From: an uncultured Flavobacteriaceae bacterium
GTDB taxonomy: Bacteria; Bacteroidota; Bacteroidia; Flavobacteriales; Flavobacteriaceae
NCBI GenBank assembly: GCA_947503005.1
Contig: CANNCA010000001.1
Span: forward strand, 186,001 to 250,000
Direction of reading: 5' to 3'
Length of the DNA: 64,000 nt
The notes beneath the pieces were generated by a model. The model saw only the letters and a list, made by a program, of their open reading frames with translations. It had not been told where the DNA came from and made no database searches. The translations under genes were made by a program, and so were the position numbers. Positions 20,051-25,162 of the stretch are shown piece by piece. Every line of letters starts with the position of its first letter. Position 1 is the stretch's first letter.

Positions 20051-20257
20051 TTAAAACCCACCCATCAATCCACCACAAATTCCTAAACTGACCAAGAGAT
20101 AAACACCTGCTAATATATAGAGCACCTTTGCGGCCTTCTTGTTCGATTTTCTTAGTAGAAGACCAATGCAAATAAATATAAGCGCAGGGCCGAGCATGAT
20201 TAGTGCGAAGAAATAAACAAGACCGTCAAAATTGGCTTCTAATGGAAGTAGCGTCAT
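20051..20257 (-). CDS. mini membrane protein, paralogue 3 of a tandem trio
   Basis: 68 residues with two hydrophobic segments (about 13-33 and 47-66) separated by a basic loop RKSNKKAAK. It shares a pattern with the next two genes: an N-terminal helix, a K-rich turn, then LYILAGVYLLVSLGICGGLMG. The function is unknown. It is the last gene of the minus-strand operon containing the radical SAM and Lgt-like genes. Confidence 0.7.
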   Translation of the reverse strand: MTLLPLEANFDGLVYFFALIMLGPALIFICIGLLLRKSNKKAAKVLYILAGVYLLVSLGICGGLMGGF

Positions 20258-20274
20258 AGTTTTAATTTATTGGC

Positions 20275-20472
20275 TTAAGCGACAAACCCACAAGCACCTA
20301 TAGCAATTAAAAAGCAGCTGCCAGAAATAATTAGGAGCACCTTGCTCTCTTTCTTCTTTTTAAGCGCACCTAGAATAATCGCAACAATCAAAAACAAAAT
20401 TGCGGGAGCAAACATGAAAAACCCAAAGGCAGCTAAATCGCTTATGTAAAACTCTAATGGGATAGGCTTCAT
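20275..20472 (-). CDS. mini membrane protein, paralogue 2 of a tandem trio
   Basis: 65 residues from the start MKPIPLEFYISDLAAFGFF; longer upstream starts run into the preceding gene and add a non-homologous tail, so they are rejected. Two hydrophobic segments flank the basic turn GALKKKKESK, and the C-terminal block LLIISGSCFLIAIGACGFVA lines up with the LAGVYLLVSLGICGG and LMGVYLLIAFGICG blocks of its neighbours. The function is unknown. It lies 10 bases after the stop of the upstream paralogue. Confidence 0.7.
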   Translation of the reverse strand: MKPIPLEFYISDLAAFGFFMFAPAILFLIVAIILGALKKKKESKVLLIISGSCFLIAIGACGFVA

Positions 20473-20482
20473 AAGATTCAAT

Positions 20483-20668
20483 TTATTTCGTATCCAAACT
20501 AAAATTGGCAAGCATGATGCCACAAATACCGAAAGCAATCAAAAGGTATACACCCATAAGTATCAAGAACAACTTCCCCTTTTTGTTATCCCTACGTATA
20601 AAAAATACTATGGCCAATATAAAGAGGATGATAGGGACACCGATCATCAAAAAAACCAATAATTCCAT
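20483..20668 (-). CDS. mini membrane protein, paralogue 1 of a tandem trio
   Basis: 61 residues with two membrane segments around the turn RRDNKKGK, followed by LFLILMGVYLLIAFGICG. It begins one base after the stop of the radical SAM gene, so translation is very likely coupled to it. This tight linkage is the reason to consider the trio as partners of the Lgt-like/radical SAM pair. No known family was recognised. Confidence 0.72.
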   Translation of the reverse strand: MELLVFLMIGVPIILFILAIVFFIRRDNKKGKLFLILMGVYLLIAFGICGIMLANFSLDTK

Positions 20669-20669
20669 A

Positions 20670-22061
20670 CTAAACTTCTGCTTTTAATTCTTCTAGGCGC
20701 TCAATTTTATCATCCCTGTAAAACAAATTCATGGTTTCAAAGGGAATAATTTTATAGTCTTTGTTCACAATGTGTACACATGATTTTTTGATGGCCCGTA
20801 CATCAAAATTATGGGCATCTATAAATTGCATGATAATGATGCGGAAAAGATTGTCATAGCCCAATTCAGGGGCATCGATTTCCGGTAGGCAGCACATAAT
20901 GCTTTTTAGATTTTCAGATGCTTTCTCAACGGAATTCCCAGTACTGAACAATTCTATCATTTTCCCGTGCAACTGTTCATCTTGCTCGTAGATGATGGTA
21001 TTCTTTCCTTCGTTCAACAAATCATCCGGATTGATATATCGGGTCAAGGGACTCACCTCATCACCTAACTTCAAAGCATAGGCCATAACCAATGCATCAG
21101 GATTACAGGGTACTGGAATCAAATCGTCGGCTTCAAAAATAGGTGATTGTTCCAAGATTTTTCTCCGCACCTCGGTCAATGTTATCCTGTTTTCATCAAC
21201 TTCGAAATTTTCTAAGCGGCCCGCGATTTGGGTAGGCTGGAAAGTTACCCCACGAATACATCTTTGTTTTAGGGCAAAATCGATAGTCGCCCCCATCTCA
21301 TGATCGTTCAATCCCTTTTGAAGGGTAACGACCAATGTGGTCGACAGGTTGAGTTTGTTGAGGTTTTCTATGGCTTTTAAGCGTACATCTGCCAAATCGG
21401 CGCCACGCAGGGTTTGCAACACCTGATTGTCTAAAGAATCGAATTGCAAGTAAATTTCAAAATCTGGAGTGTAAGTGGCTAGCCTTTCCGCAAAAGCAAA
21501 GTCCTTGGCGATTTTGATTCCGTTGGTATTCAGCATCAAATGTCGAATGGGCAATGTTTTAGCATAATCCATAATTTCAAAGAAATTTGGATGTATGGTC
21601 GGTTCGCCCCCACTGAGCTGAACCACATCGGGTTCACCTTCGTTTTTGACGATGACATCCAACATCTTTTTGACCTCGTCCAAAGTGCGATGTCTTCCAT
21701 AGGTTGGTGAAGACCCAGCATAACAGGTTGGACAAGTCAGGTTGCAGCGGTCAGTTAGTTCTACGACCGTCAAACAGGAATGCTGCTCATGGTCTGGGCA
21801 AAGCCCACAATCATAAGGGCAGCCATAATGGGTTTTGGTATTAAAGGTCTTCGGATATTCCGATACTTTATTATAGTTGCGAATGTTCTTGTAGTATGCG
21901 ATGTCGTCCGCGATTAATACCTTGCTTCTTCCGTGTTCTTTGCAGTTTTTCAACATGTACACCTTATCATTTTCAAAGACGATTTTTGCATCAACCCTAC
22001 GCAGACAATTGGGACAAAGGCTTAAGGTAAAATCATAGTAGGTGTAATTTCTTTCCGGCAT
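20670..22061 (-). CDS. radical SAM protein of the Tes/MJ0619-like type
   Basis: 463 residues. The radical SAM cluster is C106-NLT-C110-PT-C113. Upstream are two more cysteine groups: C16xxC19 with C40 (LCPNCL, then KNCKEHG), and C81, C85, C88, C96 (CPYDCGLCPDHEQHSC). This arrangement of an N-terminal zinc-like site, CPxDCGLC..H..HTC-like block and VELTDRCNLTCPTCYA is characteristic of the MJ0619/tetraether lipid synthase (Tes) group, some members of which make carbon-carbon bonds between lipid tails. SAM-binding follow-up motif QLSGGEPTIHP is present. Its start lies 29 bp inside the Lgt-like gene, and the mini membrane proteins follow directly. Lipid is the inferred substrate from family and context; it is not proven. 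Confidence 0.88.
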   Translation of the reverse strand: MPERNYTYYDFTLSLCPNCLRRVDAKIVFENDKVYMLKNCKEHGRSKVLIADDIAYYKNIRNYNKVSEYPKTFNTKTHYGCPYDCGLCPDHEQHSCLTVVELTDRCNLTCPTCYAGSSPTYGRHRTLDEVKKMLDVIVKNEGEPDVVQLSGGEPTIHPNFFEIMDYAKTLPIRHLMLNTNGIKIAKDFAFAERLATYTPDFEIYLQFDSLDNQVLQTLRGADLADVRLKAIENLNKLNLSTTLVVTLQKGLNDHEMGATIDFALKQRCIRGVTFQPTQIAGRLENFEVDENRITLTEVRRKILEQSPIFEADDLIPVPCNPDALVMAYALKLGDEVSPLTRYINPDDLLNEGKNTIIYEQDEQLHGKMIELFSTGNSVEKASENLKSIMCCLPEIDAPELGYDNLFRIIIMQFIDAHNFDVRAIKKSCVHIVNKDYKIIPFETMNLFYRDDKIERLEELKAEV

Positions 22062-22803
22062 ATTTGATTCCTTGAAGGATGGTTTTGTGGTAGTAGCTAA
22101 AACAAATTAAGCATAATAATTGGATGCTGCTCAGGCCAAGAAAGAAAAAGGTATTGGGTTTGAGGAATTCGATGAAGAAACGAAATCCGAAATAAGAAAG
22201 CATAAAAATCTTAAAAGAAGTTCCACATTTAAAGCGATTCGGTTGTTTTTGCAGTTCTTTGATGCCCATAAAAAGCAGCACTAAAAAGACGACTTCGTAT
22301 AATGCGATTGGATGCCTAAGCAGGCCATCCCCTAAATCCATTCCTAAAAAGACATCAGTTTCTTTTCCATAAGTGAACTCTTTGATTCCCGCTAAAAAAC
22401 AACCGATTCGGCCAATGATAATTCCGAAGATAATTGGCAGCGTAAACAAATCGCCCGAAGAGTGTTTTTCGCCAATAATCTTTTTGGCCAGTTCAACCCC
22501 AAGTAGTCCACCGAATAAACCACCCATAATGGTCTTGTTGTTCAAAATGGCCAACCAACCTTGCTCATAATGTAATGGTGGATTTTCTAAAAAAGCAACT
22601 AAACGCGACAAGAAAAGCGCACCAAAAATGGCTCCTATAATTATGGAAAGTCGATTTTTCGACGAAATAGAATCCGTAGTTTTCTTGCGAAGTATGACAT
22701 AATAACGGAAAGCAACAAAGAACGCCAGATACTCGATTATCAGGTGTATGTTCAATTTTATACCGAACAGTATAGGCTCAAAAGGAAGGGCTATTCCTGC
22801 CAC
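22033..22803 (-). CDS. Lgt-like (prolipoprotein diacylglyceryl transferase family) membrane protein with altered active site
   Basis: 256 residues with about seven membrane segments. The Lgt signature region reads IIGRIGCFLAGIKEFTYG (R132), followed by LLRHPIALYEV and FGFRFFIEFLKPN (R208, E212), so family membership is clear. Two usual features differ: the HGG block, containing the essential His of E. coli Lgt, reads MGG here (M93), and the Asn of GRxGNF is Cys135. It is therefore probably not the housekeeping enzyme that puts diacylglyceryl on lipoproteins but a paralogue with another acceptor or role. It overlaps the PD40 lipoprotein gene by 13 bp and the radical SAM gene by 29 bp. Confidence 0.85.
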   Translation of the reverse strand: MAGIALPFEPILFGIKLNIHLIIEYLAFFVAFRYYVILRKKTTDSISSKNRLSIIIGAIFGALFLSRLVAFLENPPLHYEQGWLAILNNKTIMGGLFGGLLGVELAKKIIGEKHSSGDLFTLPIIFGIIIGRIGCFLAGIKEFTYGKETDVFLGMDLGDGLLRHPIALYEVVFLVLLFMGIKELQKQPNRFKCGTSFKIFMLSYFGFRFFIEFLKPNTFFFLGLSSIQLLCLICFSYYHKTILQGIKYAGKKLHLL

Positions 22804-23903
22804 TCCGCAATGAACAAATTTGTATCGCGGGTTCCGCCATTGTTGCGGTTGCTTGAAAAGGCCAAATATTTACCATCATTGGAGAAAACCGGAAAAGCAT
22901 CAAAGGTTTCTCCGTGGGTTACACGTTCTAAATTCTTTCCATCGATATCGATAAAATAAAGATTGAAAGGAAAACCCTTCTCTGCTTCAAAATTGCTTGA
23001 GAACAAAATCTTTTCACCGGAAGGATGAAAAAACGGACTCCAATTAGCATTGCCCAAAAAGGTCAATTGTTTTAAATCGGTACCGTCGGCATTGCATATA
23101 AACAGCTCCATTTCCGTTGGTTCTACCAATCCATCTGCTAGTAAATCCTTGTATTTTTTAATTTCTTCCGGAGTTTTGGGCCTTGAAGCTCTAAAAATTA
23201 GTTTGGTCCCATCAGGTGAAAAGAAAGCACCGCCATCATAACCGAGTTCGTCCGTTATCTGTTTCACATCGGAACCGTCTAGGTTCATAGTATACAACTC
23301 TAAATCGCCACTTCGATCCGAAGTAAATACAATTTTATCTCCTTTAGGAGAAACAGTTGCTTCGGCATCATAGCCTTTTTCATCCGTCAGTTGTGCTGTA
23401 ATATTCCCTTCTAAATCAGCGACGAAAATGTCAAAGGAGTCGTATACAGGCCAAACGTAATTCCCGTTTTTTCGTAGTGGTACTTCAGGGCATTCCTTAT
23501 CTACCAAGTGAGTTGACCCATAAACATAATGTTTGTTGTCAGGTAAGAAATAGGCACAAGTAGTTCGGCCATATCCCGTACTGACCATGGGCGGTTTTTT
23601 ATCCTTGAAGCTTTCTTCGATGTTCATTAAAAACATTTGGTCGCAGTTCATGCCCCAAGCTTGGTTGTTCGATTGAAAAATCATTTGTTTATCGTCCCAA
23701 CTCCAATAAGCCTCGGCATTGTCACCGCCGAAGGTAATTTGACGAATTGATTTGAAGTATTTTTCCTCAGGATAGATAAGCGTATCGCTTCCGGCCATTA
23801 ACGAGGTTGTCTCCTCTTTATCAAGTTCAGGGTTTGTTTTTTTGGTTTCAGATTTACAACTTCCCAAGAGAAATAGAAGCAACAAAACAAAAGGAATTCT
23901 CAT
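22791..23903 (-). CDS. TolB-like PD40 beta-propeller lipoprotein
   Basis: 370 residues. The signal MRIPFVLLLLFLLGSCKSE has a lipobox at Cys16. Repeated PD40 blades follow, such as ATVSPKGDKIVFTSDRSG, DLELYTMNLDGSDVKQIT, GGAFFSPDGTKLIFRASRPK and VFSNDGKYLAFSSNRNN. Such propellers usually bind proteins or peptidoglycan-linked partners in the periplasm. It is the first gene of the operon with the Lgt-like and radical SAM genes (13 bp overlap), and a divergent M28 peptidase gene starts 32 bases upstream. It may be a substrate or scaffold of that system; this is inference. Confidence 0.85.
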   Translation of the reverse strand: MRIPFVLLLLFLLGSCKSETKKTNPELDKEETTSLMAGSDTLIYPEEKYFKSIRQITFGGDNAEAYWSWDDKQMIFQSNNQAWGMNCDQMFLMNIEESFKDKKPPMVSTGYGRTTCAYFLPDNKHYVYGSTHLVDKECPEVPLRKNGNYVWPVYDSFDIFVADLEGNITAQLTDEKGYDAEATVSPKGDKIVFTSDRSGDLELYTMNLDGSDVKQITDELGYDGGAFFSPDGTKLIFRASRPKTPEEIKKYKDLLADGLVEPTEMELFICNADGTDLKQLTFLGNANWSPFFHPSGEKILFSSNFEAEKGFPFNLYFIDIDGKNLERVTHGETFDAFPVFSNDGKYLAFSSNRNNGGTRDTNLFIAEWQE

Positions 23904-23935: not shown

Positions 23936-25162
23936 ATGGTGCGTATTTTAATGATTTTGACGATAATTTTTATGGCTTTGTATTCCTGTAAAACCGAACC
24001 ACCTAAGAAAGTCACATTGAAAGACGACGTGGCTTTTTTAGCTGCCGATACACTGTTAGGTCGTGAAACAGGAACGGCCCAAGAATTGATGGCCGCTAAT
24101 TATCTTCAAAAAAGGTTTCAAAATTTGGGATTAATGCCCAAAGGAAAAGCCAATACTTATTTTCAGACCTATTCTTTCAAACCCAAAACCGACCCGCATT
24201 CAGAAGTACAGTTCGTTTCCGGCGATAGTACCAATACGGGCACTAATATCATCGGTTACATTGACAATGATGCATTAAAAACCGTGGTTATCGGGGCGCA
24301 TTACGATCATCTGGGTATGGGTGGCGAGGGCTCCCTGTATGCTGATGGCGTTGCGATACACAACGGGGCCGACGACAATGCAAGCGGAGTAGCGGTGATG
24401 CTGCAACTGGCGGAAAAATTAAAAGACACCCTCATGGGTAGCAACTACTTGTTTATCGCATTTTCAGGGGAGGAAAAAGGATTGCTGGGCAGTAATTATT
24501 TTTCAAAAAATCCGACCATCGACCTTGAAAAAATGAATTATATGATCAATATGGATATGGTCGGGCGTCTTCGAGATGACAACACCCTTTCCATAAGCGG
24601 AACGGGCACAGCCCCCATTTGGAATCAAGTTCTGAACGCTACAAACCCTGGATTTAAATTGGTGTTAGGAGAATCAGGAGTAGGCCCCAGTGATCATACT
24701 TCTTTTTATTTACAGGATATTCCCGTTTTGCATTTTTTTACCGGCCAACACGAAGATTATCATAAACCGTCCGACGATTATGATAAGTTGAATTATGAGG
24801 GAATGAAAATGATTGGAGACTATATCCTTAATATAATCGCAGAACTGGATGACGATCCCAAACTGACTTTTCGAACCACCAAAAACGAAAGCGAGGATGT
24901 ACCACGATTTAAAGTGGCATTAGGGGTGATGCCCGATTATCTTTTCGATGGCAAAGGTATGAGAATCGATGGGGTCACCGAAGACCGACCAGCTGCGGCA
25001 GCCGGACTTCAAAAAGGAGATATTGTCATTCAATTGGGCGATAGCACGGTCGTTGATATGATGAGTTATATGCGTGCGCTTTCTACATTTGAGGAGGGGA
25101 ATTCCACAAAAGTCGTGGTGGATCGAAACGGGAAAAAAGTTGAAGCGGAGATCACCTTTTAA
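23936..25162 (+). CDS. M28 family metallopeptidase with C-terminal PDZ domain, lipoprotein
   Basis: 408 residues from MVRILMILTIIFMALYSCKTE, a lipoprotein signal (Cys18); an upstream in-frame ATG is rejected because it lies inside the divergent gene and precedes no signal. The di-zinc site is visible: H in VVIGAHYDHLGMG, D in NGADDNASG, the EE of FSGEEKGLLG, D in NMDMVGR and H in HEDYHKPSDDYDK. A PDZ-like domain (about 325-408; GMRIDGVTEDRPAAAAGLQKGD) follows. It is probably an aminopeptidase at the outer or inner membrane. Confidence 0.92.
   Translation: MVRILMILTIIFMALYSCKTEPPKKVTLKDDVAFLAADTLLGRETGTAQELMAANYLQKRFQNLGLMPKGKANTYFQTYSFKPKTDPHSEVQFVSGDSTNTGTNIIGYIDNDALKTVVIGAHYDHLGMGGEGSLYADGVAIHNGADDNASGVAVMLQLAEKLKDTLMGSNYLFIAFSGEEKGLLGSNYFSKNPTIDLEKMNYMINMDMVGRLRDDNTLSISGTGTAPIWNQVLNATNPGFKLVLGESGVGPSDHTSFYLQDIPVLHFFTGQHEDYHKPSDDYDKLNYEGMKMIGDYILNIIAELDDDPKLTFRTTKNESEDVPRFKVALGVMPDYLFDGKGMRIDGVTEDRPAAAAGLQKGDIVIQLGDSTVVDMMSYMRALSTFEEGNSTKVVVDRNGKKVEAEITF

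Follow-up and report, generated by a model that had tools for sequence, protein, structure and literature searches.

A module of an Lgt-like protein, a Tes/TrsS-type radical SAM enzyme and mini membrane proteins that may be lipidated at a cysteine near their C-terminus

In the genome of an uncultured marine Flavobacteriaceae bacterium (GenBank assembly GCA_947503005.1, contig CANNCA010000001.1), a relative of the prolipoprotein diacylglyceryl transferase Lgt is encoded next to a radical S-adenosylmethionine enzyme of the Tes/TrsS type (rSAM) and three mini membrane proteins (minis), which raises the question of what such a set of proteins would act on. The window analysed is the 64,000-nucleotide stretch from position 186,001 to 250,000 of this contig, and coordinates are given within it unless stated otherwise. 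Six open reading frames (ORFs), including one for a PD40 lipoprotein, lie there on the minus strand; neighbouring frames overlap by 13 and 29 bp or are 1, 10 and 17 bases apart, exactly as given in a preliminary description that had regarded them as one operon. Five of them, encoding the Lgt-like protein, the rSAM and the minis, stood as a real unit, while the PD40 lipoprotein proved to be merely a neighbour, its gene being directly adjacent to that of the Lgt-like protein in 4 of 100 loci examined. Judging from sequence conservation, it is near certain that the Lgt-like protein, the Tes/TrsS-type rSAM and one to four minis constitute one co-inherited module. The best overall explanation, held tentatively and with somewhat less than even confidence, is that a cysteine of the minis would be lipidated by the Lgt-like enzyme and that the rSAM would work on the lipid tail.

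To begin with, both enzymes were found together in 25 of 296 Bacteroidota genomes, the rSAM alone in one, the Lgt-like protein alone in one and neither in 269 (Fisher p 5e−34, a value that overstates independence because the genomes are related). The preliminary description had asked for a pairing beyond chance, and a conserved pairing is what these counts bear out. Matches to the TrsS model reached at least 190 bits in 26 genomes, the next being 94 bits, and matches to the profile of the Lgt-like protein (A2) reached at least 216 bits in 26 genomes, the next being 125 bits; these searches scored the best first-look candidates (up to nine for A2 and five for TrsS), and single misses are possible. 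The genome with the rSAM alone (G212) carried an enzyme of 30% identity belonging to another subtype (L085). Among 149 Flavobacteriaceae genomes, the rSAM was present at 79% identity or more in 20, that of the window included, and a broken copy was found in one more. A decaying module, with broken rSAM fragments and a mini remnant and without the Lgt-like gene, was observed in genome G072 (L024/L053).

The same picture was obtained for single loci, in a set weighted to close kin, for which a scan of named genomes contributed its 80 best relatives out of at least 584. From 117 distinct rSAM loci, 110 were usable (enough flank, not decayed and not of another subtype), of which 107 had an Lgt-like gene on the same strand, 107 had at least one mini and 105 had both. 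The Lgt-like gene overlapped the rSAM gene in 83 of its 107 loci, lay within 300 bases in 14 and elsewhere in the locus in 10. Moreover, a mini gene overlapped the rSAM gene by 4 bp in 51 loci, and the same mini rule applied to the opposite strand gave matches in 7 of the 117 loci. How many loci had a detected mini depended on the rule: 113 of 120 when duplicate organisms were counted, 93 of 112 under a stricter version that missed obvious minis (for example in L034) and 107 of 110 under the final one. The latter leaves out the decayed L053, L085 with its other subtype and loci truncated at contig ends, grants a reach of 2,000 bases to L084, where the mini sits behind two other genes, and excludes from the 107 the mini of L103, which was recognised by eye. 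Furthermore, the distance matrices of the Lgt-like protein and the rSAM were correlated (Mantel r 0.90 over 22 pairs, a value reached in 0 of 5000 permutations), which is a sign of shared inheritance and not of contact.

The Lgt-like membrane protein (22033-22803, minus strand, GTG start, 256 aa) is a paralogue of Lgt, matching Pfam LGT at 79.1 bits (cut-off 24.9) and falling below the cut-off of the lgt equivalog TIGR00544 (42.1 vs. 118.9 bits). Its AlphaFold2 (AF2) model (pLDDT 91.7) had E. coli Lgt (5AZB) as the sole PDB fold match at E < 0.001 (E 7.9e−5, TMq 0.64), with 17% identity in the fold alignment. The residues pointed out before, namely M93 in front of GG, C135 in GRIGC (codon 22399-22401, minus strand, located by arithmetic and verified) and the RHP and FRFFIEF blocks, were all confirmed in the sequence. 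The position of N146 in E. coli Lgt was occupied by Cys in 109 of 109 module proteins picked by profile and by Asn in 11 canonical Bacteroidota Lgt, these being the proteins that passed the filter from 32 loci. The Y26 position was His in 108 of the 109, the equivalent of R143 (R132) was kept in all of them and that of R239 (R208) in 108, with one gap. The motif [KRN][STA][IV][MVLIAT]GG was present in 117 of 117 module proteins and HGG or HGA in none; eight of these 117 had been picked by GRxGC itself, and 109 of 109 is the Cys count that can be quoted. As MAFFT misplaced the HGG column, the claim on the HGG histidine rests on these motif counts.

Of the altered active site proposed in the preliminary description, the loss of the HGG histidine therefore holds, whereas C135 does not by itself demonstrate altered chemistry: GRIGC occurs in four Lgt outside the module, and N146C is reported in distant Lgt in the excerpts of a 2026 paper (PMC13251419; all sources cited by PMC number are represented here by excerpts). 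C135 was thus ruled out as a unique mark of the module, the four proteins (L250-L253) being Lgt with GRIGC(Q/H)L from same-phylum genomes without it. In genomes G189 and G389, a GRIGC-type Lgt was the sole match to the Lgt-like profile, and a housekeeping Lgt may carry Cys at N146. The substitutions are partly known already from the excerpted text of that paper, where some Lgt carry Y, W or F at the H103 position (PMC13251419).

A housekeeping role of the Lgt-like protein was rejected. The genome of the window has three LGT-family genes, with two matches of 212 and 187 bits (G000 C5:236248-237009 and C4:265867-266760) that are stronger than the 79 bits of the module copy. Forty more Flavobacteriaceae genomes were surveyed, of which 19 had an intact rSAM, one a decayed rSAM and 20 none. 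All 19 with an intact rSAM had at least one strong Lgt in addition to a weak Lgt-like copy, scoring 76-99 bits, in the rSAM locus, so that the separate canonical gene, whose absence was to mark the module copy as the housekeeping one, was found throughout. No Lgt match below 100 bits was found in the other 21 of these 40 genomes, G033 having a second one at 139.5 bits. An extra weak match elsewhere in the genome was seen in the rSAM-positive G017, and G050 and G018 are among the relatives with two strong Lgt.

The rSAM (20670-22061, minus strand, 463 aa) matched the Pfam families Radical_SAM and Zn_ribbon_HMPTM, and it has the ligand patterns of a rubredoxin-like site, [4Fe4S]N, a radical SAM cluster and a C-terminal auxiliary cluster. 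Its best NCBIfam match was TrsS (NF045646) at 329 bits, followed by a score of 290 bits against the Tes model (NF045702), neither of which reached the cut-off (490 and 450, respectively); the TrsS cut-off was exceeded in none of the 296 Bacteroidota genomes. The closest relative in the PDB was Tes itself (7TOL, E 1.6e−69). The Tes ligands printed in the excerpts of PMC9433317 are C9x2C12x20C33x2H36, C73, C77 and C80, a Cx3Cx2C group and Met439. The corresponding residues of the window protein are C16x2C19x20C40x2H43, C81x3C85x2C88, C106x3C110x2C113 and M411, and the three cysteine groups of the MJ0619/Tes type that had been described from the sequence agree with them. Among 22 module rSAMs tabulated, C319 and C428 were present in all, and the Met ligand was absent in six (three actinobacterial proteins, L103, L084 and G299). 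The AF2 model of the rSAM, obtained with 31 closely related rows, had a pLDDT of 60.6 and was left unused.

The third component are the minis, all on the minus strand, with the codons of their conserved Cys located by arithmetic and verified. Mini1 (20483-20668, 61 aa) has two hydrophobic segments and C49 in FGICG (20522-20524); mini2 (20275-20472, 65 aa from an in-frame ATG) has C61 in IGACG (20290-20292); and mini3 (20051-20257, 68 aa) has C61 in LGICG (20075-20077) and is the strongest profile match among the three of this genome. The mechanical ORF of mini2 starts at TTG 20538, and this extended form is less likely than the ATG start. The three are paralogues that match one another and have in common a C-terminal G-x-C motif, in a layout comprising a basic loop, a last hydrophobic helix, G-x-C at the helix end and a short tail. 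By its sequence, this end resembles the layout of a lipoprotein signal, but placed at the C-terminal end of the protein. No Pfam or NCBIfam family above its cut-off was found for the three window minis, those of six other loci or two of M. branderi. The model of the putative C-terminal anchoring domain lipo-invert (NF058595) gave 13.7 bits for mini3 and 10.1 bits for mini1 (13.9 bits being the genome-search figure), below a cut-off of 37.

Most sets of minis were selected for a C-terminal Cys; their Cys counts are no evidence for this residue, and only a test blind to it counts. A rule taking any small hydrophobic ORF that starts no more than 60 bases after the rSAM gene made a pick in 101 of 115 distinct loci. 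Cys was found within the last 17 residues in 99 of these 101 first ORFs and [GS]xC in 98, compared with 189 and 38, respectively, of 445 control ORFs farther off. Rather than mere membrane helpers, as had been supposed, the minis look like a dedicated third component, whose conserved Cys could be an acceptor. In the 148 minis selected for Cys, a set that counts the same organism more than once, position −2 was Gly in 129 and position −1 was Ile or Val in 105, 127 had a tail of 4-7 residues, and 141 carried a net positive charge at 18-34 residues before the Cys. Lys or Arg appeared in the tail of 11, and a tail of exactly three residues, of the CaaX type, in 3. Longer minis (L093, L102, L103 and the actinobacterial ones) had extra hydrophobic segments or a Pro-rich N-terminus and the same end. 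In L095-L097 and L101, from one family (f2) of the same order, the Lgt-like and rSAM genes flank the mini gene, whose product has its Cys in SGYIC or GGCIC.

The minis are also largely confined to the module. The mini profile A3 detected them in 19 of 20 rSAM-positive genomes, in the operon only, and the genome missed (G113) has a divergent mini (72 aa, GFSMC). No mini-like protein away from the operon was found at E ≤0.001 in these 20 genomes, a search in which weaker relatives could be missed. Outside intact loci, A3 matched the remnant in the decayed G072 and one frame in 1 of 20 rSAM-negative genomes (G003). This orphan (L254, G003 C71, about 750-920) ends in SSGFFYAIIA, with Phe at the Cys position, and the 4 kb examined there showed no gene for either enzyme. 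The absence of Cys where the enzymes are missing is, as a single case, in line with the minis being substrates.

The module extends beyond Bacteroidota. A protein search of plasmid records gave ten records with an rSAM relative, six of which were examined. The trio was present in three actinobacterial records, namely plasmids of M. branderi (L221) and M. avium (L223) and a Nonomuraea replicon (L222), as an Lgt-like protein with GR(L/I)GC, an rSAM and one or two proteins with G-x-C-T-G-(L/I)-N-P at the end of the last helix. Persicobacter (L219, Bacteroidota) had the module in its Bacteroidota form. In M. vanbaalenii (L218, a Mycolicibacterium plasmid) and Salinirubellus (L220, a haloarchaeal plasmid), the rSAM adjoins a methyltransferase gene and represents another subtype; thiol-redox genes lie near these two (CcdA and a disulfide oxidoreductase; the peroxiredoxin family). 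A tree of 41 Lgt placed all 23 module proteins, among them those from actinobacteria, on one side of a branch with 97/98 and the 18 others on the other side, and L103, from the phylum of the window, grouped with the actinobacterial proteins. The module Lgt-like enzymes are thus, by sequence, a clade of their own without the HGG histidine. The rSAM tree, with long branches, repeated the sub-groups L103 plus actinobacterial, L084 plus G299 and L090 plus L093. Since the rSAMs of the other subtype fell between the actinobacterial and the Bacteroidota module members, this tree does not establish that the module rSAMs arose only once.

These observations are best read as a module that would first attach a lipid to small membrane proteins, at a Cys close to their C-terminal end, and afterwards alter this lipid. 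The lipid or lipid-anchor role proposed in the preliminary description remains the best reading of a conserved module, with the difference that the candidate acceptor would be the mini Cys rather than the PD40 lipoprotein. The last helix of the mini would run in-to-out and bring the Cys to the periplasmic face; given the basic stretch before this helix, the positive-inside rule predicts the Cys outside. The active site of Lgt faces the same side (excerpts of PMC4728403). With a phospholipid as donor, the Lgt-like enzyme would then load the mini Cys with a lipid of the diacylglyceryl or another type, and this part, orientation and transfer together, appears somewhat probable. Signal peptidase II would not cut, as position −1 is mostly Ile or Val, and the lipid would remain on the tail of the intact mini. 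The rSAM, by analogy with Tes, would abstract a hydrogen from the lipid tail and couple the tail to another carbon, perhaps between the tails of two lipidated minis or between a mini and a phospholipid; coupling on that same mini lipid is possible, with the balance slightly against it. The most far-reaching version, in which bacteria would have a dedicated CaaX-like lipidation of an outer-face Cys near the C-terminus, with coupled tails yielding minis with joined or membrane-spanning lipids, is considered unlikely as a whole.

In eukaryotes, ICMT acts on a lipidated C-terminal Cys. In L084 and L078/L256, a gene for an ICMT-family membrane methyltransferase lies upstream of the Lgt-like gene and shares 4 bp with the rSAM gene, and a mini gene overlaps the Lgt-like gene by 17 bp. 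The methyltransferases matched PF04140 (E 5.6e−16 and 4.3e−13) and PEMT as well, and tblastn found no such gene in the other loci searched. By analogy, either a lipidated C-terminal Cys or a lipid would be a fitting substrate for such an enzyme.

Several observations weigh against lipidation of the minis followed by coupling. The ICMT link comes from two loci in a single sub-clade, and phospholipid methyltransferases would match the domain as well. The excerpts of PMC4728403 report that H103A/N/Q/R/Y of E. coli Lgt failed to complement, a result that is partly different for H103Q in the excerpts of a later paper (PMC13251419), so that transfer of diacylglyceryl to Cys may be beyond the Lgt-like protein altogether. 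A cytosolic location is expected of the rSAM, and the mini Cys is predicted outside. The position of Tes Tyr459 is Ile431 in the window rSAM and Ile or Val in the other 21 module rSAMs; in the excerpts of PMC9433317, this Tyr is strictly conserved in archaeal Tes, and Tes Y459F/L is still active. The [4Fe4S]N cysteines are absent in four of the 22 (three actinobacterial proteins and L103). A relaxed lipobox was present in only 7 of the 148 Cys-selected minis and failed by 141. The first minis of L122 and L161 have no Cys (GIFG in L161) beside an intact rSAM, and they may be decoys, diverging extra copies or counter-examples. Exceptions to the linkage also count here: G165 has the Lgt-like gene and no rSAM within the 18 kb examined, G180 has the two enzyme genes on different contigs with a mini found at neither place, G414 has the Lgt-like gene on a different contig from the rSAM gene, and no mini was found in L184.

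The kept metal ligands of Tes would also suit a free membrane lipid as product, in which case the Lgt-like protein would pass a phospholipid or its diacylglyceryl part to the rSAM, the tails would be joined into a membrane-spanning or cyclised lipid, and the minis would be a scaffold or adaptor with a structural Cys. The literature lends some weight to this, as Tes produces archaeal lipids that span the membrane and also binds phospholipids of bacteria (excerpts of PMC9433317), and bacterial Tes homologues are proposed for branched tetraethers (excerpts of PMC8941075). It is nevertheless judged rather unlikely, given that minis in one to four copies that diverge while one Cys and one Gly stay are more like a substrate than a subunit. 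Such short, divergent, multi-copy peptides, found in the operon only and beside an rSAM, would also fit a system like those of ribosomally synthesized and post-translationally modified peptides (RiPPs), the rSAM modifying the mini near its Cys, for example by C-methylation or a thioether, and the Lgt-like protein anchoring or exporting the peptide. This is improbable on the relationship of the enzyme: it is nearest to TrsS and Tes (329 and 290 bits), and peptide maturases (WgkB, AlbA and others) scored no more than 57 bits among the 25 best of 56 NCBIfam matches. By eye, no exporter or protease gene stood out as recurring among the locus entries listed, and no search aimed at such genes was made.

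Two further explanations concern parts of the module. If the conserved Cys of the Lgt-like protein (109 of 109) and of the mini (99 of 101 in the blind test) formed a disulfide or bound a metal, they could feed electrons to the rSAM; GRxGC is also found in Lgt outside the module, no electron-carrier gene was noticed beside it (no dedicated search was made), and this explanation is very improbable. Finally, its Pfam LGT membership and the kept equivalents of R143 and R239 would allow the Lgt-like protein to be a spare Lgt serving ordinary lipoproteins such as the neighbouring PD40 protein, with an unrelated rSAM. A score below the lgt equivalog cut-off, the missing HGG or HGA, the tight link to the rSAM and the minis, and the rare adjacency of PD40 are hard to square with it, and it is given hardly any credence.

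The PD40 lipoprotein (22791-23903, minus strand, 370 aa), a beta-propeller protein outside the core, had been proposed as the modification target and was rejected on linkage. Its gene appeared in 23 of the 100 loci, beside an M28 peptidase gene in 23 of 23, and the four loci in which it abuts the Lgt-like gene include two apparently of the same organism (L039 and L120). In the window, the gene of an M28-family PDZ peptidase lipoprotein (23936-25162, plus strand) is divergent from it, forming a separate conserved pair. A promoter scan gave no sites above shuffles (11 vs. 10.5), and terminator-like sites numbered 9 vs. 3.8 in shuffles.

Membership in Tes, TrsS, canonical Lgt, lipobox lipoproteins and lipo-invert was tested, and scores and motifs stayed below what these families ask for. 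The archaeal tetraether lipid synthase Tes (GDGT-MAS, MJ0619) has rubredoxin, [4Fe4S]N and radical SAM ligands and a Met like most Bacteroidota module rSAMs, but the window rSAM differs in its score, in Ile for Tyr459 and in a bacterial context with an Lgt-like gene and minis. TrsS, a radical SAM (seleno)protein, is the nearest NCBIfam family in a comparison of the proteins themselves. E. coli Lgt (5AZB/5AZC) has in common the Pfam family, the fold and the R143 and R239 equivalents, whereas the module proteins have M, V, L, I, A or T for the HGG histidine, His for Y26, Cys for N146, and an adjacent rSAM and minis. With lipobox lipoproteins, the minis share the basic region, the hydrophobic helix and the Cys, and probably an in-to-out topology, but their Cys is near the C-terminus and lacks a small residue at −1. 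Lipo-invert shows a weak similarity to mini3, and no match of the window genome reaches its cut-off. A parallel may exist with eukaryotic CaaX processing (prenylation, Rce1 and ICMT), in which a lipid would likewise be placed on a Cys near the C-terminus, with an ICMT/PEMT-family gene in two module operons; the module differs in its tail of usually 4-7 residues and in a membrane mini protein as acceptor, and no prenyltransferase was seen. MSMEG_5408, the second Lgt homologue of Mycobacterium smegmatis, has Y26H and N146C as in the module and is given a 'presumed low Lgt activity' in the excerpts of PMC13251419; its membership is a lead only, the likeness coming from these two residues. In the literature searched, no paper was found that ties an Lgt relative to a Tes-like rSAM and small membrane proteins, and an earlier description in the TrsS paper (Haft and Tolstoy 2025) is possible. 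With this reserve, the parts are distant members of known families, and the three-part module fits no known system compared.

Lipidation of bacterial proteins by Lgt is known at the N-terminus. If the reading proposed here is true, Lgt-type lipidation would be extended from N-termini to C-termini. It would also give a physiological setting to bacterial Tes homologues, which are noted without a known product in the excerpts of PMC9433317 and PMC8941075. With the module, a specific hypothesis also becomes available for second copies of Lgt that carry N146C, MSMEG_5408 being an example.

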